Below are positions 52,827 through 64,000 of a stretch of DNA of 64,000 nucleotides, in pieces. Origin of the DNA: Myroides odoratus DSM 2801 (GTDB taxonomy: Bacteria > Bacteroidota > Bacteroidia > Flavobacteriales > Flavobacteriaceae); NCBI RefSeq assembly GCF_000243275.1, contig NZ_CM001437.1, positions 1,461,100 to 1,525,099 on the forward strand, given 5' to 3'. Every line of letters starts with the position of its first letter. The first letter of the stretch is position 1. A program made the position numbers and the translations under genes. The notes below the pieces were generated by a model that saw nothing but the letters and a program-made list of their open reading frames with translations, was not told where the DNA came from and searched no databases.

Positions 52827-53294
52827 ATGCTAAAGAAAAAACTTGTCAGTATTTGGTTTCTGTTGATTTTCCTATTTTCAAACATAGGATGGTCAATGAG
52901 TGTACATTACTGTCAAGGCGAAGCACATTACAGTCCCTTGCGTTATACGCACACCCATCAAGATACGGGATGTACCATGGAAATGGAGCAAGAAATACAA
53001 CAAGAAGAAAAAGCCTGTTGTTCTACAAAAGCTCCTGTTGAAAAACCCATCAAAAAATTTGCTGATAAAAAATGTTGTCAAGATGAATTGATTAAATCCA
53101 ATCTTTCGGACCACAACATTCAGCATGTCTATACTCCGCATTTCGAATTCATTCTTCCTGATTATAGCTGGACTGAATGCTCTAGGTATGTGGTGGATTT
53201 TCCTGTACAAAAACAGGAAACACTAGCCTATTACATGGAGGCAAATGCTCCTCCACTCTATCAATTATATTGTCGTCTAGTTCTTTACGCGTAA
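52827..53294 (+). CDS. HYC_CC_PP family secreted protein
   Basis: The 155-aa protein has a signal peptide (about residues 1-23). It carries the name-giving HYC motif (27-29), then CC pairs at 64-65 and 83-84 and a histidine-rich stretch (THTHQDT). The family is small and of unproven function. The paired cysteines and histidines suggest metal, probably copper, binding (inference). A TonB receptor and an HMA protein follow in the same direction. Confidence 0.8.
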   Translation: MLKKKLVSIWFLLIFLFSNIGWSMSVHYCQGEAHYSPLRYTHTHQDTGCTMEMEQEIQQEEKACCSTKAPVEKPIKKFADKKCCQDELIKSNLSDHNIQHVYTPHFEFILPDYSWTECSRYVVDFPVQKQETLAYYMEANAPPLYQLYCRLVLYA

Positions 53295-53374
53295 CCTATT
53301 GTTGCTACATTTTCGTTTGACTTCCCTTTGTAAGTCGAACAGTTCTATTTTGTATTAACAATTACACGTAAAAA

Positions 53375-55615
53375 ATGATCAAACATTTAGTCACCCTTGC
53401 TGTATTCACAGTGGGTACTTCGCTATATGCACAACAAACGATTACTGGACAAATCGTAGATGAAACTCATACCCCAATCATTGGTGCTTCTGTTTTTTAT
53501 GCCAATCAATCTATTGGTGTAGCGACAGATGCACAAGGGAAATTCACCTTGCCTTATGTAGAAAAGGAATCCTTAACCATTTCTTATATTGGGTATAAAA
53601 CTCAATCGCTTACTCCACAAGTAGGACAATCCTATCACCTTGTTTTACAACCAGAAGAATCGTTAGATGAAGTAATCATCCAAACGAAACAACGCAATAC
53701 CACGCGTTCAATTAAAGGAACAACGAATAGTTTCACCATGAATAGTGGAGAATTACTCAAAGCGGCTTGTTGTAATATTTCAGAAGCTTTTGAAACAAAT
53801 CCATCCATTGATGTCAATTATACAGATGCGATTACTGGAACTAAGCAAATTAAAATGCTAGGATTAACTAGTCCTTATATTTTGATTGCAGAGGAGAACA
53901 TTCCTTCAGTACGCGGAGCTTCTCAAATTTACGGGTTAACTTTTACACCAGGGACTTGGGTAGAAAGTATCCAAGTAACGAAAGGAGCAGGAACCGTAAT
54001 CAATGGATATGAAAGTATCTCAGGTCAATTGAATACTGAATTAATCAAACCCGCGACGGATCGTCCGTTTTTCTTAAATCTATATGGTTCAACAGATGAG
54101 CGTTTTGAAGCGAACGTACACGGAAATTATCGTTTAAATGACAAATGGAGTTCTTCTCTATTCATTCACGGAAACTTGAGAACTGGTGACCACGATAAAA
54201 ACCACGACGGTTTCTTGGACATGCCAAAAGGAGAGCAAATTAATGTAATGAATCGTTGGCAATACATCAACCCCGAAAAAGGAGTGGTAAGTTTTATCAC
54301 GGCTCGTTATATGAAAGATAATAAAGTAGCAGGACAAGTGGATTTCGACAAAAAGAAAGACAAGGGTTCTACAGTACTTTGGGGATCAGAGATTAATACA
54401 GAAAAGATCGATTTATCTACCAAACTAGGGTATGTATTCCCCGATTTGCCCTTCCAAAGTGCAGGATTACAGGTCGCGTATAACTACCACAAACAAGATT
54501 CTTATTTTGGATTGAATCTCTATGATATCAAACAGAATAGCTTATACTCTAATCTTGTTTTCAATTCTATTATCAACAATACCCTACACAAATTCGCTAC
54601 GGGAATTAGTTTTACATTAGACCAATATACTGAACAGGTATTTGTTCCAGGTATTGATGCAAATTTCAACCGCACAGATAATGCTTTAGGGGCTTTCTAC
54701 GAATATACATATGACAATACCACTGACTTCAGTGTTGTAGCGGGTATGCGTGTGGATTATCACAATCGCATGGGGCTATTTGCAACACCGCGTTTGCATT
54801 TGCGCTATAATCCATGGGAAAATGGAGTTTTACGTGCTTCAGTAGGTCGAGGAAAACGCCTGGCAAACGTATTTGCGGAAAACCAAATTTTCTTTGCAAC
54901 GAATCGCTACTTCCAAATTGAAGGGAACAACGGAAAAATCTATGATTTAGATCCTGAAATTGCCTGGAATTATGGGTTAAGTTTCACTCAAAACTTCCAT
55001 TTAATTGGTCGTAAAGGGGATGTAACATTGGATTTCTACCGTACAGATTTTGAAAACCAAATTGTGGTAGATGCAGATTATGACGCACATCAGTTACTAT
55101 TTTACAACTTAGATGGAAAATCCTATGCTAATAGCTTCCAGCTAGAGGTCAACTACAACTTAGCGCGTAATTTAAATCTTCGTTCTGCCTACAAATACTA
55201 CGATATTGCTACAGATCAAAAGACAGGTAAATTTGAAAAAGCCTATCAACCCAAACATCGTTTCTTTGCGAATTTAGAGTTTACAACGAACGAACAAGAC
55301 AATGGTGCACATTGGAAATTTGATTTCACTTACAATTGGTTAGGCAAACAACGTATCACCTCTACAGCAGAGTATGCTACTGCGAATCAGATGAAATCAG
55401 CTTCAAATCCGTATTCTTTGATGAACTTCCAAATTACAAAAGTATTCTCTCCTCGTTTTGAATTTTATGTTGGTGGGGAAAATATTGGAAACTACAAGCA
55501 ACGCAATCCAATTGTTAGTGCTAGTAATCCTTTTGATACTGATTTTGATACCTCTATGGTCTATGCTCCTATTGCAGGCTCAATGTATTATGCAGGCTTG
55601 CGTCTTAAACTTTAA
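53375..55615 (+). CDS. TonB-dependent receptor (metal-linked)
   Basis: The 746-aa outer-membrane receptor has a signal peptide (about residues 1-20) and an N-terminal carboxypeptidase-regulatory-like domain (21-92). The plug and 22-strand-type barrel follow. An unusual Cys pair sits in the plug (AACCN, residues 132-133). Its upstream and downstream neighbours are both cysteine-rich metal-type proteins. Copper or another thiophilic metal is the inferred cargo. It probably uses TonB-ExbBD energy. Confidence 0.88.
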   Translation: MIKHLVTLAVFTVGTSLYAQQTITGQIVDETHTPIIGASVFYANQSIGVATDAQGKFTLPYVEKESLTISYIGYKTQSLTPQVGQSYHLVLQPEESLDEVIIQTKQRNTTRSIKGTTNSFTMNSGELLKAACCNISEAFETNPSIDVNYTDAITGTKQIKMLGLTSPYILIAEENIPSVRGASQIYGLTFTPGTWVESIQVTKGAGTVINGYESISGQLNTELIKPATDRPFFLNLYGSTDERFEANVHGNYRLNDKWSSSLFIHGNLRTGDHDKNHDGFLDMPKGEQINVMNRWQYINPEKGVVSFITARYMKDNKVAGQVDFDKKKDKGSTVLWGSEINTEKIDLSTKLGYVFPDLPFQSAGLQVAYNYHKQDSYFGLNLYDIKQNSLYSNLVFNSIINNTLHKFATGISFTLDQYTEQVFVPGIDANFNRTDNALGAFYEYTYDNTTDFSVVAGMRVDYHNRMGLFATPRLHLRYNPWENGVLRASVGRGKRLANVFAENQIFFATNRYFQIEGNNGKIYDLDPEIAWNYGLSFTQNFHLIGRKGDVTLDFYRTDFENQIVVDADYDAHQLLFYNLDGKSYANSFQLEVNYNLARNLNLRSAYKYYDIATDQKTGKFEKAYQPKHRFFANLEFTTNEQDNGAHWKFDFTYNWLGKQRITSTAEYATANQMKSASNPYSLMNFQITKVFSPRFEFYVGGENIGNYKQRNPIVSASNPFDTDFDTSMVYAPIAGSMYYAGLRLKL

Positions 55616-55636
55616 TTAACTAAAACTCTTTATAAG

Positions 55637-55972
55637 ATGAAAAAAATATTTTTAACACTAGGGCTATTCCTAGTTACGAATGCAGCTATCGTTGCACAAG
55701 AAAAAGAACAACCAAAACAAGTAATTGGCGTGAAAGGTTTATGCGAGATGTGTAAAAAACGCATTGAAAAAGCAGCTTTAGACGTTAAAGGCGTACGCTC
55801 TGTAGATTGGTCTATTGCAGATCAACAGCTAACGGTGTATTTGAATCCAAAGAAAACAACGGGAAAAGAAGTACAAGAAGCAGTGGCTTTAGCGGGTCAT
55901 GATACAGAATCAGTAAAAGCAACAAATGAAGCGTATAACAATTTACATGGTTGTTGTAAATACGAGAGATAG
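55637..55972 (+). CDS. Heavy-metal-associated (HMA) domain protein
   Basis: The 111-aa secreted protein has a signal peptide (1-20) and one HMA ferredoxin-like fold with the metal motif CEMC (residues 36-39). A C-terminal GCC (105-107) follows. HMA proteins bind Cu(I) or other soft metals and pass them on. The gene follows the TonB receptor by 21 nt, so it is in the same operon and may act as its periplasmic metal acceptor. Confidence 0.88.
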   Translation: MKKIFLTLGLFLVTNAAIVAQEKEQPKQVIGVKGLCEMCKKRIEKAALDVKGVRSVDWSIADQQLTVYLNPKKTTGKEVQEAVALAGHDTESVKATNEAYNNLHGCCKYER

Positions 55973-57159: not shown

Positions 57160-58011
57160 ATGTTATCTTCTATTGAACTAAAATCCATTTATGGATTTGA
57201 TGCTGGCACAGCCACTTATCTGACTGAAAATGATCATCTTTTTCAACAGCACAACGACGTGTATCAATTGCTTTGGCTACAAAAAGGAAAAGTTTCCGTG
57301 ATCATGTCTACCAACAAAAAAGAATTGACAGAAGGCGACTGTTTATTTTTGGGTAAAAATGAATTATTTCGCTTAACTGCTGACGAGAGCTATTCCCTCT
57401 GTTATGTCCAATTTACGGACAACTTCTATTGTCGCACGGAAGTAGATCGTCACTTTTTGGATAAATGTGTCTTTTTTGACAATACCAAAGCGATTAATTC
57501 CATTACACTGAAACCAGAACAAATGGCTTTTGCGCAATACTATTTTATTTCATTACTGAAATTACAAAGCAAAACGTACAGCAATTTGAATTATATGACC
57601 GCTCATAATATTATTGAGCGCGTCTTACTGTTCATTATGGCTTGTCATATTAATACCTATGTAGAGTTTAATAAGGAAAAGTTATCTCCTGCTCAACTTA
57701 AAAATGTCATTAAGTTTAATGAACTGATTAAAACCAATATTCGAAAAGAACGCAACGTACAGTTTTATGCAGATCACATGAATATTTCAGTTTCAAAGCT
57801 TACCGAAATTAGCAAGGATATTTATGGAACAACGCCTAAAAAGATTATTGCGAGTGCCGTAGTAAATGAGGTAAAGCTATTATTAAAGCACACACCTTTG
57901 ACAATCAAAGAGATTGCGTATGAGTTAAACTTTGAAGATTCAAGTAATTTCACTCGCTTTTTCATTAAAGCAACAGGACTCAGTCCAAAGGAATACCGCG
58001 AGAGTTTATAA
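57160..58011 (+). CDS. AraC family transcriptional regulator
   Basis: The 283-aa protein has an N-terminal cupin-like domain (residues ~20-150, EGDCLFLGKNELF). The C-terminal double HTH (about 185-283) ends TIKEIAYELNFEDSSNFTRFFIKATGLSPKEYRESL. The ligand is unknown. It lies left of the tRNA-Arg fragment, with the fibre-like operon beginning 330 bp after its end. Regulation of that operon is possible but not shown. Confidence 0.93.
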   Translation: MLSSIELKSIYGFDAGTATYLTENDHLFQQHNDVYQLLWLQKGKVSVIMSTNKKELTEGDCLFLGKNELFRLTADESYSLCYVQFTDNFYCRTEVDRHFLDKCVFFDNTKAINSITLKPEQMAFAQYYFISLLKLQSKTYSNLNYMTAHNIIERVLLFIMACHINTYVEFNKEKLSPAQLKNVIKFNELIKTNIRKERNVQFYADHMNISVSKLTEISKDIYGTTPKKIIASAVVNEVKLLLKHTPLTIKEIAYELNFEDSSNFTRFFIKATGLSPKEYRESL

Positions 58012-58041
58012 CGTATATTCTCTTTTATAAAATTATATAGG

Positions 58042-58072
58042 CACCAATGAGTTTCATTGGTGTTTTTTTTTT
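58042..58072 (+). terminator. Terminator of the AraC gene
   Basis: The stem CACCAATGA/TCATTGGTG with a GTT loop is followed by twelve T, just left of the tRNA fragment. Confidence 0.85.
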
Positions 58073-58343: not shown

Positions 58344-58904
58344 ATGAAAACAACCTTCAAATTAGCATTAGTAGCCGCTTTATCTTTTATCAGTGTAACA
58401 TCATTTGCTCAAGAGGGCAACAAAAAAAGTTCAAGCACTACCAACTTAAACGTTAATTTGTCAGATGTATACGAACTTAACGTAACAAATGCATCTGTAA
58501 CTATCCCGATGAATACTGTTGAGCAGTTTCAAAAAGGAAGTACTTCTGGAGAATTAAAAAATCACTTAGAAGTAACAGCTACTCAAAAATACGAAATCAA
58601 AGTAGTAGCAAGTAGCGATTTAAACAACAGCGGTGTAACTATTCCAGTAAACACAGTAGAAGTAAGAATCAAAGGAAATACCAACTTAGCTGAAGGAGCA
58701 GGACCAAACAATTTCACTGCCTCTCACAACATTGCACAATTAGCAACAACAGAAAGTACACCTTTAATTACGACTTCTGCAGGTACAGCAAAAATGGGAT
58801 ATGCAGTTGAGTATGCTATTCCAGCAAGTCAAACTTCTGCTTATACAGACAAAAAAGAAGGAACTTACACTACAACAGTGACTTACAATTTATACGCATT
58901 ATAA
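58344..58904 (+). CDS. Secreted fibre-subunit-like protein, first paralogue (DUF4402-like)
   Basis: The 186-aa protein has a signal peptide (about residues 1-23, FAQ) and no lipobox. The mature part is beta-rich and carries a motif shared with the next two genes: FQKG (62-65), NHL (73-75), YEIKV (83-87) and a terminal beta strand GTYTTTVTYNL (173-183). The family resembles DUF4402-type secreted proteins often coded near fimbrial chaperones. Being first and followed by a strong hairpin, it is the candidate major subunit (inference). Confidence 0.7.
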   Translation: MKTTFKLALVAALSFISVTSFAQEGNKKSSSTTNLNVNLSDVYELNVTNASVTIPMNTVEQFQKGSTSGELKNHLEVTATQKYEIKVVASSDLNNSGVTIPVNTVEVRIKGNTNLAEGAGPNNFTASHNIAQLATTESTPLITTSAGTAKMGYAVEYAIPASQTSAYTDKKEGTYTTTVTYNLYAL

Positions 58905-58926
58905 TATAAAAAGCGCCCCAATTTTA

Positions 58927-58965
58927 TCTACTGTTGCTTCATTTTTGCAACAGTAGATTTTTTTT
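58927..58965 (+). terminator. Strong hairpin after the first subunit-like gene
   Basis: The stem TCTACTGTTGC/GCAACAGTAGA is followed by eight T, 22 nt after the stop. It should reduce transcription into the downstream cluster. Confidence 0.8.
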
Positions 58966-59131
58966 GTCTGCTCCTTTCACTGGGTCAACACGTGTTCAAA
59001 CAAATCGCCTAAGTCGTGCTAAAAAATTGAGAAGTCTAGCTTCTATTTCACCTTTAAGGCCTTTATTTTAGAGAAATCTGCTTAATTAATTCGATTTTTT
59101 TTGCTAAATTTAACCTAGATAATTTGATACA

Positions 59132-59644
59132 ATGCGAAACATATTAGCCCCTTTATTCCTGTTGTTTAGTTTTGTCCTATCTGCGCAAAATTCAGCTCAA
59201 AGTAACCTTAATGTTATTTTGAAACCCATCCAATCGATTAAAATTAACGATCAGCAACAGCACGTTAATTTATCTTTTGAAACGGTTGAAGATTATACCA
59301 AAGGAAAAATCAGCAATCAAGCAGATCACATCGAAGTGATGAGTAGTGGAACCTATGAAATACGCGTAGTTGCTCAAGCTCCTCTTATGCATAATGCCGA
59401 TGAAATTCGAGTAGAACATATTGGACTCAACCCTAGCTTAGGTGCTATTGGTGATTTTAGAGATAATATTACACTTCTTCCCGTTTCGCTTTCTATGCGC
59501 GAACGCAATATGATTCAATCGAATGCAGGGGATGTGAAACGAACTTTTAATGTTTCGTACAAAATGAATGCCTCTGATGAATTATTAAATAAACCAGTAG
59601 GTACTTATAGTACTGTGATAACCTATACTATTTTATCTTTGTAA
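59132..59644 (+). CDS. Secreted fibre-subunit-like protein, second paralogue
   Basis: The 170-aa protein has a signal peptide (1-19). The shared motif is YTKG (55-58), DHIEV (65-69), YEIRV (75-79), and the C-terminal strand GTYSTVITYTI (157-167). The mature N-terminus (SNLNVILKPIQSIKI) resembles the edge strand of the first paralogue. The gene starts the second transcript portion of the cluster, with 8 nt to the next gene. Confidence 0.68.
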   Translation: MRNILAPLFLLFSFVLSAQNSAQSNLNVILKPIQSIKINDQQQHVNLSFETVEDYTKGKISNQADHIEVMSSGTYEIRVVAQAPLMHNADEIRVEHIGLNPSLGAIGDFRDNITLLPVSLSMRERNMIQSNAGDVKRTFNVSYKMNASDELLNKPVGTYSTVITYTILSL

Positions 59645-59652
59645 CAATATAC

Positions 59653-60186
59653 GTGTTTAAAAAAACTCTATTTATCTTAACTTTGTTACTTACCACTTCT
59701 CCAATCTTAGCTCAAATTGGTTCTGCTAAGTCTAAAATTGTGCTCAATTTTCGAGAACAACAGTCGTTGGTAATTAGTCATCCTTCTGTTGACATAAACC
59801 TCAACAAAGGTGCTGAATACGCTAAAGGTGTAGAAACAGGTATGCTTAAAAATCACTTAATCATCCAATGTTCCACTCCTTACGAATTATCGGTACGTTC
59901 CATTAATGCGTATTTCCAATATGAAAATTCGCTTTCTGGTTTACCCGTATCCATCATTCGCATTAAACCGAATATCACCACATCTACGGCTTTGGATTTT
60001 CCGTTACAACTACATCCCGTTGATCTGACCATCAATCCACAGCTTATGATTCAATCTAATAATAGAGGGAATAGTCAACAAATAGATGTCAATTATACAA
60101 TACCCGTTCAAAATATTGGTCAAACATTAAATCAAAAAGCAGGAAGTTATCAAACTACAATTGTTTATACTTTATTGCCCCATTAA
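59653..60186 (+). CDS. Secreted fibre-subunit-like protein, third paralogue
   Basis: The 177-aa protein uses a GTG start (59653), 8 nt after the previous stop. It has a signal peptide (1-20) and the shared motif: YAKG (56-59), NHLII (67-71), YELSV (77-81), and terminal strand GSYQTTIVYTL (164-174). No lipobox. Being a separate paralogue, it may be a minor subunit or a fibre-base adapter (inference). Confidence 0.68.
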   Translation: MFKKTLFILTLLLTTSPILAQIGSAKSKIVLNFREQQSLVISHPSVDINLNKGAEYAKGVETGMLKNHLIIQCSTPYELSVRSINAYFQYENSLSGLPVSIIRIKPNITTSTALDFPLQLHPVDLTINPQLMIQSNNRGNSQQIDVNYTIPVQNIGQTLNQKAGSYQTTIVYTLLPH

Positions 60187-60200
60187 TTAATTGCTTTATA

Positions 60201-60992
60201 ATGAGAAAATTATTTTATCTAGTCTTTCTTTTGAGTTCAATTGTTTCATTTGCACAAGCGGGATTATCCATCTCTCCTGGAAAAATGTATTTTCGAAATA
60301 CGGCGGGTACGGTTGCTACACAAAAGGTACGTATTGCAAATCCCAATGATAAAGCAGTTGAAGTAGGAGTTTCTTTAGGAGATTGGAATTATGATACCAA
60401 TGGAAGTAATCACATTGCGGAAGCTAATACCTTGCGTAATTCTGCTTCTTCTTGGATTCAGGTTTTACCTAATTCTTATTTTGTAATTGAACCCAATGAG
60501 ATCAAAGAGGTAGAGGTAATTTTGAATGTTCCACAGCAATTAGATGCTGGCACACCTGTACATACGGCGATGATTTTCTTTACGCAGTTAAATCCAGGGA
60601 ATGCAGTAGACGAAAATGGAGCTGCAATAAAAGTAACGGTTCGCATGGGATTAAAAGTATATCATGCCAATCAGAATAATACAGAATCTGTAGAGATTAC
60701 AAATTTAGAACCAAATAAAACGACAGATGGCCAGCGTGCAATTGATGTTTCGTTTCAAAATAATGGATTATTGTGGAGTGACGGAAAAATCACGGCTACA
60801 ATATTTGATCAACAAACAGGAGAAAAACAAGCCTTGAATACGCTTGATTTTTATAGCTTACCTGATGACTCGAGAAAACAATCTTTTCCTTTGCCGCAAG
60901 ATTTAAAACCAGGCACCTACACTTTTATAGTACAATTGACTTATGGAAAGGACAATACTGTAAAAGTAGCCGAACTTGATTTTACCCTATGA
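60201..60992 (+). CDS. PapD-like periplasmic chaperone
   Basis: The 263-aa protein has a signal peptide (1-18) and two Ig-like domains. The first opens GLSISPGKMYFRNTAGTVATQKVRIANPND, the second begins at about 155 and ends DNTVKVAELDFTL. This matches the layout of fimbrial chaperones of the PapD superfamily. The conserved Arg and Lys of classical PapD cannot be placed with confidence. It would hold the subunits until export. Its stop overlaps the next start by 4 nt (ATGA). Confidence 0.72.
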   Translation: MRKLFYLVFLLSSIVSFAQAGLSISPGKMYFRNTAGTVATQKVRIANPNDKAVEVGVSLGDWNYDTNGSNHIAEANTLRNSASSWIQVLPNSYFVIEPNEIKEVEVILNVPQQLDAGTPVHTAMIFFTQLNPGNAVDENGAAIKVTVRMGLKVYHANQNNTESVEITNLEPNKTTDGQRAIDVSFQNNGLLWSDGKITATIFDQQTGEKQALNTLDFYSLPDDSRKQSFPLPQDLKPGTYTFIVQLTYGKDNTVKVAELDFTL

Positions 60993-62011
60993 GTTTCAAA
61001 CAAAAACTTTTTTTAGCACTTACTTGTTGTTTGCATACCTTTATTTATGCACAATATGACCTCAATGTATACGATGGTGGGCAATTGGTGCTAAACTCCT
61101 ATAACGATTTAAAATTTGGCAAGTCGGAAGAGCGACAAATTTCGGTTCAATTTAGAAGAAATTTTAATGTAACTGCTCCTGCCAAATGGAAGATTACAGT
61201 TCGTTTACTTGATGATTATACGTTTGAAAACTATAGTGTTCCAGCAGAAAATTCGAGCTTAAGCATCAATAGACAAAGTGGTAATTTCAATCAAATTTCA
61301 TTCAGCAGTATAGGACGGGATTTGCCTTTGAGTAAGTTCCAAGAAAGTACTATTGTAGAAAGTACAACAGCACTTCCTGAAGGGAACTATTACACCCTAT
61401 CTTTTAACTTAGCACTACGAGGAGGCGTGCATCTTTTAACCATTCCCAATGGTATCTACCGCAGTACTTATGAGTTTTCACTCTATGATACAACTTCGGG
61501 GAAAGATGTTTTACTCACCCGTAGAACTTCCTCACCAGGAGTTGCGCGATTCCAAGTGAATTATGTAGGAAATCACGGAGATCAAGTGGCTGAATTGCGC
61601 AATGGAGCCAATGAGTTTATTTTTAATTTTGATTCTCCAGAAGACATCGTTAAGGGTAAAAAAATTACCATCAACAATGCTTTATATGTTCGAAGCTATC
61701 AAGGACACCAAGTATTGGTTAAAACAGCTGATAATTTACTATACAACACAACGATGTCTAATAGTATTCCTGTTTCTGTTTTAAAACTAAAAGCCACATT
61801 AAACAATATTCAAGGCGGAAATGCTTCTGAGGTTACCTTATTTGGACCACTCTCCTTATCCGCTCAAGAACAAGCCTTGGCTTCTTTTCCGAGATGGAGT
61901 CAATCCATGTCCTACAATTTGGAATTGAGTATTCCTCCCAATACCAAAGAACTACAACAAGCAAGTGGAAGATATGAAACCTATCTTTATTTTATAATTG
62001 TTCCGAATTAA
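60989..62011 (+). CDS. Two-domain fibre protein, candidate tip adhesin
   Basis: The 340-aa protein has a signal peptide (1-21). Residues ~22-185 form an N-terminal beta domain with its own closing strand (GIYRSTYEFSLYD, 155-167). Residues ~186-340 match the single-domain subunits: IVKG (220-223), NNALYV (229-234), GHQVLV (239-244), and final strand GRYETYLYFII (327-337). A ligand domain plus subunit domain is the tip-adhesin layout of chaperone-usher fibres. The binding partner is unknown. The 4-nt ATGA overlap couples it to the chaperone gene. Confidence 0.65.
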   Translation: MSFKQKLFLALTCCLHTFIYAQYDLNVYDGGQLVLNSYNDLKFGKSEERQISVQFRRNFNVTAPAKWKITVRLLDDYTFENYSVPAENSSLSINRQSGNFNQISFSSIGRDLPLSKFQESTIVESTTALPEGNYYTLSFNLALRGGVHLLTIPNGIYRSTYEFSLYDTTSGKDVLLTRRTSSPGVARFQVNYVGNHGDQVAELRNGANEFIFNFDSPEDIVKGKKITINNALYVRSYQGHQVLVKTADNLLYNTTMSNSIPVSVLKLKATLNNIQGGNASEVTLFGPLSLSAQEQALASFPRWSQSMSYNLELSIPPNTKELQQASGRYETYLYFIIVPN

Positions 62012-64000
62012 TGGCTAAAAAGCTTTTTATCTTCTTTTTCTTTTTACTTGGTTCATCTTCGTTGTGGGCACAGGGGGCATCTGTTTTTTTAAAATTTACC
62101 ACCACTGCTTCTCAAGCCGATGAACTAGGACATATTACTGCTACACTGGAACTATCCAATTTAGGGCAATCTGCGTGGACAGGAAATCTAGGGATAGAAA
62201 GCAATGCTAAATCCATTCGCATTTCGAGTTCGCCAACAAAAGTAGTGCGATTAAATCCTGGTCAAAAGATGTTTGTGCCCGTTATTGCACAAGTAGACCA
62301 AAGTACAGCGATGGAAGGAAACTTATCCATTAAAGCTAAATTAACCGCTGATTTTGGCCCTTCTATTCCTTGGGTAGAACAGCCTATTTTAATTCAAAAG
62401 AATCGACGCATTCTACTTTTAAATGTAGAAAATCAACTCCAATTTCAACAAATTGGAGACAGTATCTATTTGAAAGCTTTGATTCAAAATAAAGGAAATA
62501 CAACAGAGAAAGTTCACTACATTCTGACCTTACCTTCTCAACTGTACAAGGATAAAACCTTAGCCCTTGATTTTGCCCTTCAACCGCAGAATGACACCTT
62601 ACTTTCCATTCAACAACGCATTAGCAAAGAGGCTTTTAAATTAGAGGATTTCGATATTAGCGCGACTTTGTTATATGAAAATGGCGATTTTATTGCTCGT
62701 ACCAATTATGCTGTTAGTTCTTTAAAATCAAAACGACGCTATAAAGCAGAAGACCAAAACCTTGCCTATGCAGCACAATCCAATACGGTAGAATTAAACC
62801 GTGTAATGGGAAAAAACGTGCTGGGGGCTACACAATTGATTGGTTCAGCTACCTTACAATTTACAGAGAAAACGCAACTGGGGTTAACTGCTGACTTGAT
62901 TCATTGGGACAAAGAAAATAAAATGAATTTGCGCTACTTCCTTGCTGACTTTCAAACAGAAAAAGTACAAGTACAAGCGGGTAATATCTTTCAATCGGGT
63001 GAGTTCTCTCAACAAGGACGCGGGATTCAAACGAATATTAAAGTGAGTGATTCCCTCTATCTTCAAGCGGGGTATTTAGATAAAACATACCTGATTACCG
63101 ATCCGAATGATCGTTCTATTGGCTATAATACTTGGGTGGGATTCCAATCACAAAAGAATCGCTGGAAACAGGCACAATTGTATTACGATGTCAATCATCG
63201 CTATGATGAAAAGAAAATACTAGCGTACAATAGTTTTACTTTATGGAATAAACCGACTATTCAGGCGGATTTAAATCAAGGGACTTCTTTACTAGAAGCA
63301 ACAGAATCCAAACAATTGGGGCTTTTTGTCGGGTTAAATTTATATGCCAACTTCAATAAGTATCAGGTACAACACAACAGTTTTTATAGTAGCCCGTATT
63401 ACGGAGGTATGCGTCAAGGGGTTTCTCAAGTAGCCACGACTGTTCGACGAAATTTTGACCGACACAGTGTTGGAATCGTTCAACATTTTATTGATTATGC
63501 GCCAAAGTACAGCTATACTAATTCCTATAATGCAAAGCAACAATCCAATACGGTGGGGCTAAGCTATTCGTATCGATTCGCAACAAGTACACTTGCCGTA
63601 AGTCCGCAATATGTCCATGAGAAACGCTATAACTACCACACTACGGCGATGGAAGATTTATATGCAGTTCGACTCAATACTGCCTTTACGAAAAGTAACT
63701 TCTTAAAAGGCTTAGGGTATAATGCGTCTATTGATTTAGGGAACTACACAACAGAAACAGAACTACAAGAGCGCTTACATTATCGAATCAACCTGGGATT
63801 AAACTATAAATATTTTGATTTTGGGTTGAGTTACCAATACAATTACAACAACTTAAGCGAACTTATTAATGCTTCTTATTACGACGTGCAAACGCTGAAT
63901 ACCTATACCAACTTAATGGTTATGGGAAACTATCGACAGCGTTTTTTCAACAATCGCTTAGGTGTTCAATTCAGTAGTTACTATACCCATACGACTACAA
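62011..64000 (+). CDS. Usher-like outer-membrane protein (partial, 3' end outside window)
   Basis: Starts at ATG 62011, one base overlapping the previous stop (TAATG), and stays open for 663 codons to the window end. It has a signal peptide (1-20, LWAQ), two beta-sandwich domains (~22-125 and ~130-240; LSNLGQSAWTGNLGIES, then KALIQNKGNTTEKVHYILTLPSQ) and a long region from about 250 with alternating aromatic and polar strands typical of an outer-membrane barrel. Place and neighbours suggest the export pore. The plug and other signatures of classical FimD are not evident, so it may be an analogue. Confidence 0.6.
   Translation, partial: MAKKLFIFFFFLLGSSSLWAQGASVFLKFTTTASQADELGHITATLELSNLGQSAWTGNLGIESNAKSIRISSSPTKVVRLNPGQKMFVPVIAQVDQSTAMEGNLSIKAKLTADFGPSIPWVEQPILIQKNRRILLLNVENQLQFQQIGDSIYLKALIQNKGNTTEKVHYILTLPSQLYKDKTLALDFALQPQNDTLLSIQQRISKEAFKLEDFDISATLLYENGDFIARTNYAVSSLKSKRRYKAEDQNLAYAAQSNTVELNRVMGKNVLGATQLIGSATLQFTEKTQLGLTADLIHWDKENKMNLRYFLADFQTEKVQVQAGNIFQSGEFSQQGRGIQTNIKVSDSLYLQAGYLDKTYLITDPNDRSIGYNTWVGFQSQKNRWKQAQLYYDVNHRYDEKKILAYNSFTLWNKPTIQADLNQGTSLLEATESKQLGLFVGLNLYANFNKYQVQHNSFYSSPYYGGMRQGVSQVATTVRRNFDRHSVGIVQHFIDYAPKYSYTNSYNAKQQSNTVGLSYSYRFATSTLAVSPQYVHEKRYNYHTTAMEDLYAVRLNTAFTKSNFLKGLGYNASIDLGNYTTETELQERLHYRINLGLNYKYFDFGLSYQYNYNNLSELINASYYDVQTLNTYTNLMVMGNYRQRFFNNRLGVQFSSYYTHTTT

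Follow-up and report, generated by a model that had tools for sequence, protein, structure and literature searches.

A probable divergent chaperone-usher pathway with a non-classical usher in Myroides odoratus DSM 2801

Introduction

Hair-like surface fibres built by way of a chaperone and a pore are best known from E. coli and its relatives. Two papers, of 2015 and 2016, place chaperone-usher systems in Proteobacteria, Cyanobacteria and Deinococcus-Thermus (PMC4654587) and also in Spirochaetes (PMC4827864); in their available parts Bacteroidota stand on neither list. Archaic chaperone-usher pili are described as widespread, including in Cyanobacteria and Deinococcus-Thermus (PMC4654587, available part). 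Among the matches listed from the open-licence literature without preprints, no paper describing chaperone-usher pili in Bacteroidota was found, as far as the accessible text extends. One COG entitled ‘P pilus assembly protein, chaperone PapD’ is tabulated in the accessible part of a paper on a Chryseobacterium genome (PMC10710014), and automatic annotation has therefore already touched such genes. We read this as a pathway that is unnamed in searchable papers and whose divergent form escapes standard family searches. Here we examine a cluster of six genes in a 64,000-nucleotide stretch of Myroides odoratus DSM 2801 (contig NZ_CM001437.1, positions 1,461,100 to 1,525,099 of the forward strand; hereafter the window), which encodes three secreted subunit paralogues (A to C), a PapD-like chaperone, a two-domain protein and a large predicted outer-membrane barrel protein (P0001).

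With a probability of roughly 0.82, the cluster encodes a divergent chaperone-usher pathway that makes a surface fibre by means of a non-classical usher. An original prediction made from the DNA letters had proposed the same, and chaperone homology, an indirect barrel-usher link and gene order now speak in its favour. What we observe is a conserved gene order, a chaperone homologous to PapD-like proteins with its anchor residues in register, a subunit domain within the two-domain protein and an indirect similarity of the barrel protein to ushers.

Results

A PapD-like chaperone with a phylum-wide family

Profile comparison with controls establishes, at the level of sequence, the homology of the window chaperone (P0003) to PapD-like two-domain periplasmic chaperones. 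The profile A4 comprises all 21 non-redundant chaperones left from 52 family matches after removal of odd lengths and close copies. It aligned with the eight pilus chaperones of E. coli K-12 over 203 columns and both domains (94.3%, expectation value (E) 1.1e-7, as for a single pairwise comparison). A rerun scored 57.2, where 60 column shuffles reached at most 24.4 and the reversed profile 13.3—an outcome that bears out the predicted PapD-like protein with two immunoglobulin-like (Ig) domains. Lys28 and Lys152 of P0003 align with FimC Arg8 and Lys112, which we take to be the numbering of the FimC anchor pair. The Arg8 column is basic in 19 of the 21 sequences and the Lys112 column holds Lys in 15 and His in four; the anchor of the window chaperone thus appears to be of the classical type. 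The Pfam family PF00345, suggested earlier as a check, recovered one of the 21 chaperones, weakly (E 0.0025), and left the other 20 unmatched.

At E 0.001 the chaperone profile found matches in 96 of 395 sampled Bacteroidota genomes; in three of these the match spans fewer than 65 positions. A gene of 850-1455 amino acids (aa) lies directly 3' of the chaperone in 16 of 20 fetched neighbourhoods; seven of the 20 had been chosen for an already known weak barrel match, and among the other 13 the large gene follows in nine. One of the 16 (L117) was counted by gene position, its chaperone having been found by the profile search and missed by a later script. In the remaining four neighbourhoods, a 202-aa gene intervenes (one), a contig end cuts the sequence (one) or the arrangement is unclear (two). 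Genes of about 160-210 aa often stand 5' of the chaperone.

Among 72,556 plasmid records, two matched the window chaperone, both from Deinococcus, and none matched the window barrel protein. On one of these plasmids the chaperone gene adjoins a large barrel-like gene; on the other a 189-aa gene lies between them. The two pairs matched the chaperone profile at E 1e-31 and 5e-17 and the barrel profile A12 (described below) at E 1e-12 and 4e-27, all set for 1000 sequences and the last covering N- and C-terminal parts only. These genes (L121:6001-9292 and L120:5953-10577) are labelled FimB/Mfa2, carboxypeptidase regulatory-like and hypothetical, and are probably misnamed.

The barrel protein and its indirect link to ushers

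The barrel protein opens at its N-terminus with two Ig-like stretches, continues with some 475 residues in which amphipathic strands abound and closes with a C-terminal pair of sandwich domains (limits set by eye); its end is a conserved VKxKxxxVKKF. Its C-terminal part matches CarboxypepD_reg (E 8.6e-5) and SpaA (E 0.0018), both below the Pfam cut-off. A crude alternation count over residues 238-725 gave 24 strands, compared with 29 for FimD including its plug, and varies with the threshold (28 and 21 for the barrel protein vs 34 and 25 for FimD at two other thresholds). No plug-like stretch was seen in the window protein when the alignment was read by eye. None of the three usher families (Usher, PapC_N and PapC_C; PF00577, PF13954 and PF13953) matches P0001, FimD as positive control matching all three, so that the PF00577 check attached to the original prediction came out negative. 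By its sequence the protein stands outside the Pfam usher family; the pathway should work like a chaperone-usher system.

A connection to ushers emerges in steps, using the alignments A6 (28 non-redundant barrel proteins of the window family), A12 and A11 (nine and six other chaperone-adjacent barrel proteins from elsewhere in the phylum) and A9 (seven E. coli ushers). A6 matched A12 over 844 columns (100%, E 2e-40), A12 matched A11 over 543 columns (97.4%, E 1.1e-11) and A11 matched the E. coli ushers over 260 columns (92.2%, E 5.7e-7). This last alignment should include the plug region, given the place that we presume for the plug in FimD. Under other settings, the A11-A9 comparison scored 54.7 against a maximum of 29.1 in 40 shuffles, and A12-A11 99.5 against 23.3 in 20. 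The barrel-usher relation suggested by these profiles is indirect, running through A12 and A11, and rests also on gene order. Moreover, PF00577 exceeded its cut-off in none of 296 Bacteroidota genomes and matched weakly in three, each time in the gene adjoining an A4 chaperone; these matches are not independent of the A11-usher comparison, because A11 counts all three genes among its six members.

In the A11 family (f23; L100-L103, L111 and L117), TPR matches occur in three of the six members and SPOR matches in two (best E 5.5e-23). SPOR domains on these usher-like proteins would suggest peptidoglycan anchoring.

Subunits and the two-domain protein

Reading frames and a profile of 28 subunits (A5) uphold the claim of three secreted paralogues with a shared motif. 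In the strain's own genome (4.30 Mb, single contig) the profile has four matches: one in each paralogue and the fourth in the C-terminal half of the two-domain protein (340 aa). Each paralogue begins with a signal-peptide-like stretch ending in ...AQ and, as had been stated, shows no lipobox Cys after it when the sequence is read by eye. Subunit A carries an N-terminal TTNLNVNL segment and the C-terminal GTYTTTVTYNLYAL; its role as the major subunit is guessed from where its gene stands.

The second half of the two-domain protein does match the subunits, as predicted: A5, built from 28 of 36 non-redundant subunit-length matches, aligned with the C-terminal half of A7, which holds all 21 non-redundant two-domain proteins, at 99.5% (E 2.2e-23), three tip-like proteins of 400-520 aa having been left out of the alignment. 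The match begins after the columns of the subunits' N-terminal LNVxL strand, a motif present in 44 of 56 distinct subunit-length sequences. The lack of this strand in the two-domain protein is as expected of a tip subunit, which makes the tip a candidate location for it. No sequence relative of this protein was found in the PDB at E 5. At E 0.01, none of the 28 subunits matched any Pfam family, including PF14352 (DUF4402), which had been named as a check.

The N-terminal part of the subunits resembles residues 5-67 of TLP-1 and TLP-2 (PDB 9ikj and 9ikk; E 2e-5 and 7e-6), two entries with 16 chain copies each; the match ends at residue 67 of about 237. Within the open-licence literature, no publication on TLP-1/TLP-2 turned up.

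Layout and distribution of the gene cluster

All six frames and the AraC-type gene upstream lie on the + strand (Table 1). The chaperone and two-domain genes overlap by 4 nucleotides (60989-60992) and the two-domain and barrel genes by 1 nucleotide (62011), with coordinates as originally claimed. In the genome the barrel gene encodes 910 aa and would end at window position 64743 (L001:5111-7843); the gene 3' of it, beyond the window, is convergent. Of the seven proteins encoded here, scanned against Pfam and NCBIfam, only that of the AraC gene exceeded a cut-off, in Pfam; the whole-window Pfam scan covered the 663 residues of the barrel protein inside the window. In NCBIfam, subunit B weakly matched a CPR Pam pilin model (E 0.032), and the barrel protein weakly matched choice_anch_T (E 0.0023).

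Table 1. Genes of the candidate chaperone-usher cluster and of the adjoining regulator, in window coordinates.
Feature	Position	Strand	Evidence
AraC-type regulator gene	57160-58011	+	HTH_18, E 5.5e-20
Subunit A, 186 aa, candidate major pilin	58344-58904	+	member of subunit family A5; own-genome profile match, E 5.8e-46
Subunit B, 170 aa	59132-59644	+	subunit profile, E 9.4e-55, top own-genome match
Subunit C, 177 aa, GTG start	59653-60186	+	subunit profile, E 4.3e-46
PapD-like periplasmic chaperone with two Ig domains, 263 aa	60201-60992	+	A4 profile against E. coli K-12 chaperones
Two-domain protein, 340 aa, candidate tip adhesin	60989-62011	+	C-terminal half matches subunit profile
Usher-like outer-membrane protein (P0001)	62011-64000, cut by window edge	+	family alignments A2 and A6; profile links

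Relatives of the cluster, found at 22 loci through one short peptide pattern, come from Myroides, Flavobacterium or Flavobacteriaceae, Chryseobacterium and Sphingobacterium; one barrel protein, from a Myroides odoratus contig (L047), is 95% identical to that of the window. Of 18 loci inspected, 12 have the order subunit(s)-chaperone-two-domain-barrel; these 12 amount to 11 records (L006 and L058 being identical). The other six are rearranged or are missing a recognised part, and the chaperone of L072 and L073 lies on the opposite strand. Many clusters contain several subunit paralogues.

As a query, the barrel protein matched three of 296 Bacteroidota genomes, its own included, while a three-row barrel alignment matched 29 of 395 at E 0.001. 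Ten of these 29 matches span at least 600 of 930 positions in a single match, and the others are mostly C-terminal pieces. Within the genus, 10 of 101 genomes match the barrel, seven of them over at least 600 positions. A distance-matrix comparison of chaperone, tip and barrel across 25 loci gave r 0.98-0.99; we did not use it as support, because shared vertical descent alone would give the same.

A second cluster in genome G095 (L069, 3808-11657) comprises four subunits, a chaperone, a barrel gene and then a 478-aa tip-like protein, and this arrangement, with the tip-like gene after the barrel gene, is a second subtype. A 144-aa secreted protein that starts with an LNVNL-type strand lies between regulator and subunit at L005:5877-6311, and frames of 121-150 aa occupy the equivalent place in other Chryseobacterium loci; the 144-aa protein is perhaps a special (terminating or anchoring) subunit.

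Regulation and neighbouring genes

A recurring AraC-type regulator was absent from the original prediction. Among the 32 barrel loci for which at least 4.2 kb of upstream sequence was available, 22 have an upstream AraC-like gene (276-305 aa) in the same orientation, a count that includes both L006 and L058, which are one record. The gene is a probable regulator of the cluster and perhaps its own transcription unit. A terminator-like hairpin follows it at 58039-58065, the search returning one such hairpin against 1.1 expected from shuffles, and hence no excess. The Bacteroidota-type promoter pattern, in the form we assume for it, was about as frequent as in shuffled sequence and was absent before the operon; sigma-70-like sites (14 vs 8.8 expected, sd 3.5) were uninformative.

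Elsewhere in the window, positions 52827-55972 hold in a row a Cys/His-bearing secreted protein, a TonB-dependent receptor (53375-55615; PF00593, E 8.5e-21) and a small secreted CxxC protein that recalls heavy-metal-binding domains. The row is possibly a cluster for metal uptake or handling.

Discussion

Weighing the chaperone-usher reading

Several observations count against a fibre-forming chaperone-usher pathway. The fibres are a prediction from the genes. Profile comparison of the subunits with E. coli subunits was negative (6.4%), and donor-strand alternation exceeded shuffles (p<=0.05) for only 14 of the 56 distinct sequences of subunit length and for no window subunit (p 0.10, 0.33 and 0.12); this test used a crude cleavage-site rule that misplaced some sites, and one of the 56 resembles a cut tip protein. 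The nearest solved-sequence match of the chaperone is the Gram-positive EfmWxLIP1 (E 2.4e-4) and not a pilus chaperone. For the barrel protein, direct comparison of A6 with E. coli ushers was negative (2.4%). The 543-column A12-A11 alignment is loose and under other settings shrinks to 130 columns, with A11-A9 falling to 73%. The A6-A11 similarity, whose score is also far above shuffle maxima, is confined to the C-terminal sandwich domains, a common domain type. Finally, a whole-Pfam scan found PF00577 at E 0.01 in only one of the six A11 members.

The subunit results leave some room for a system in which chaperone and barrel protein export non-polymerising Ig-fold surface proteins, that is, chaperone-assisted secretion rather than a pilus. 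Polymerisation is a prediction, the donor-strand pattern is weak in the window subunits and these are unrelated by profile to E. coli subunits; nevertheless, the several subunit paralogues of many clusters, a tip-like protein without the N-terminal strand and the resemblance of the subunits' N-terminal part to the start of chains present in 16 copies per PDB entry all argue for a fibre, and we consider secretion alone unlikely.

We hold it quite improbable that the subunits self-assemble by donor strand, with the barrel protein an accessory pore or unrelated receptor and the chaperone-like protein a WxLIP-like surface protein. EfmWxLIP1 is indeed the top solved-chain match of the chaperone family, and WxLIP_PGBD matches two of its 21 members in Pfam. 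Yet a large barrel-like gene directly follows the chaperone gene in most fetched loci across the phylum, the two genes are paired, adjacent or separated by one gene, on the Deinococcus plasmids as well, and the anchor residues are in register with FimC.

The solutions usual in Bacteroidota are type V (FimA/Mfa) pili and type IX secretion. A cluster of either kind is favoured by the phylum and by a distant Deinococcus chaperone annotated FimB/Mfa2 (Pfam Mfa2, 21.7 bits against a cut-off of 21.2), but is very improbable given subunits that show no lipobox by eye, no family of these kinds in the window proteins at E up to 1 and none in the 28 subunits or 21 chaperones in Pfam at E 0.01. That the barrel protein is a plain TonB-dependent receptor is hardly credible: it has an outer-membrane-like barrel region with CarboxypepD_reg-like domains, but that of P0001 is C-terminal rather than N-terminal, and the TonB receptor and plug families (PF00593/PF07715) are not among the eight Pfam families matched by the 28 barrel proteins at E 0.01, whereas the window's own receptor, as positive control, matches both.

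Proposed mechanism and significance

For the chaperone-usher pathway favoured here, we infer donor-strand exchange, pore function, adhesion and regulation as follows. The AraC-type activator would probably switch the operon on, and subunits A-C and the two-domain protein would be exported to the periplasm by Sec. There, the PapD-like chaperone would bind each subunit, its Lys28/Lys152 pair holding the subunit C-terminus, and would lend a strand to the incomplete Ig fold of the subunit. The chaperone-subunit complex would dock on the 910-residue outer-membrane barrel protein, probably at the pair of N-terminal Ig domains. At this site the N-terminal extension of the next subunit would take the place of the chaperone strand, and the fibre would be extruded. 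The two-domain protein lacks such an extension; it would start the fibre and sit at its tip as an adhesin.

A broader proposal, which we offer tentatively and at somewhat short of even odds, is that such clusters form a separate phylum-wide chaperone-usher branch in Bacteroidota and Deinococcota, whose ushers would receive chaperone-subunit complexes at two N-terminal Ig domains in place of the customary N-terminal domain and, in the window subtype, would lack a plug. As about one quarter of the sampled Bacteroidota genomes match the chaperone family, a class of surface fibres may have gone unnamed in many members of the phylum. The system would also serve as a natural experiment on which parts of an usher, plug and N-terminal domain among them, cannot be dispensed with.

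Comparison with known systems

TLP-1/TLP-2 are like the window subunits in a short N-terminal part, beyond which the match stops. To the WxL/WxLIP clusters of Gram-positives the tie is the chaperone family, similar in sequence to EfmWxLIP1 over both domains; an outer membrane or a barrel partner is not known from those clusters. The cluster resembles archaic (sigma) and alternative chaperone-usher pili (Csu, ECP) in its divergent sequences and the archaic ones also in a wide distribution. In the available part of the published description, archaic chaperones anchor through an Arg in strand F1 and a Tyr/Arg in domain 2 (PMC4654587), which sets them apart from the classical-type pair that the window chaperone and most members of its family alignment carry.

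Against classical chaperone-usher pili (E. coli K-12 Fim, Sfm, Elf, Yad, Yeh, Yra and Ybg), the cluster differs in a barrel protein that starts with two Ig-like stretches and matches no usher family, in subunits with no detectable sequence relation and in a tip-like gene that precedes the usher gene. With the same pili it shares a two-Ig chaperone whose basic anchor residues are in register, subunits together with a two-domain tip-like protein, a large outer-membrane barrel-like protein and a compact operon.

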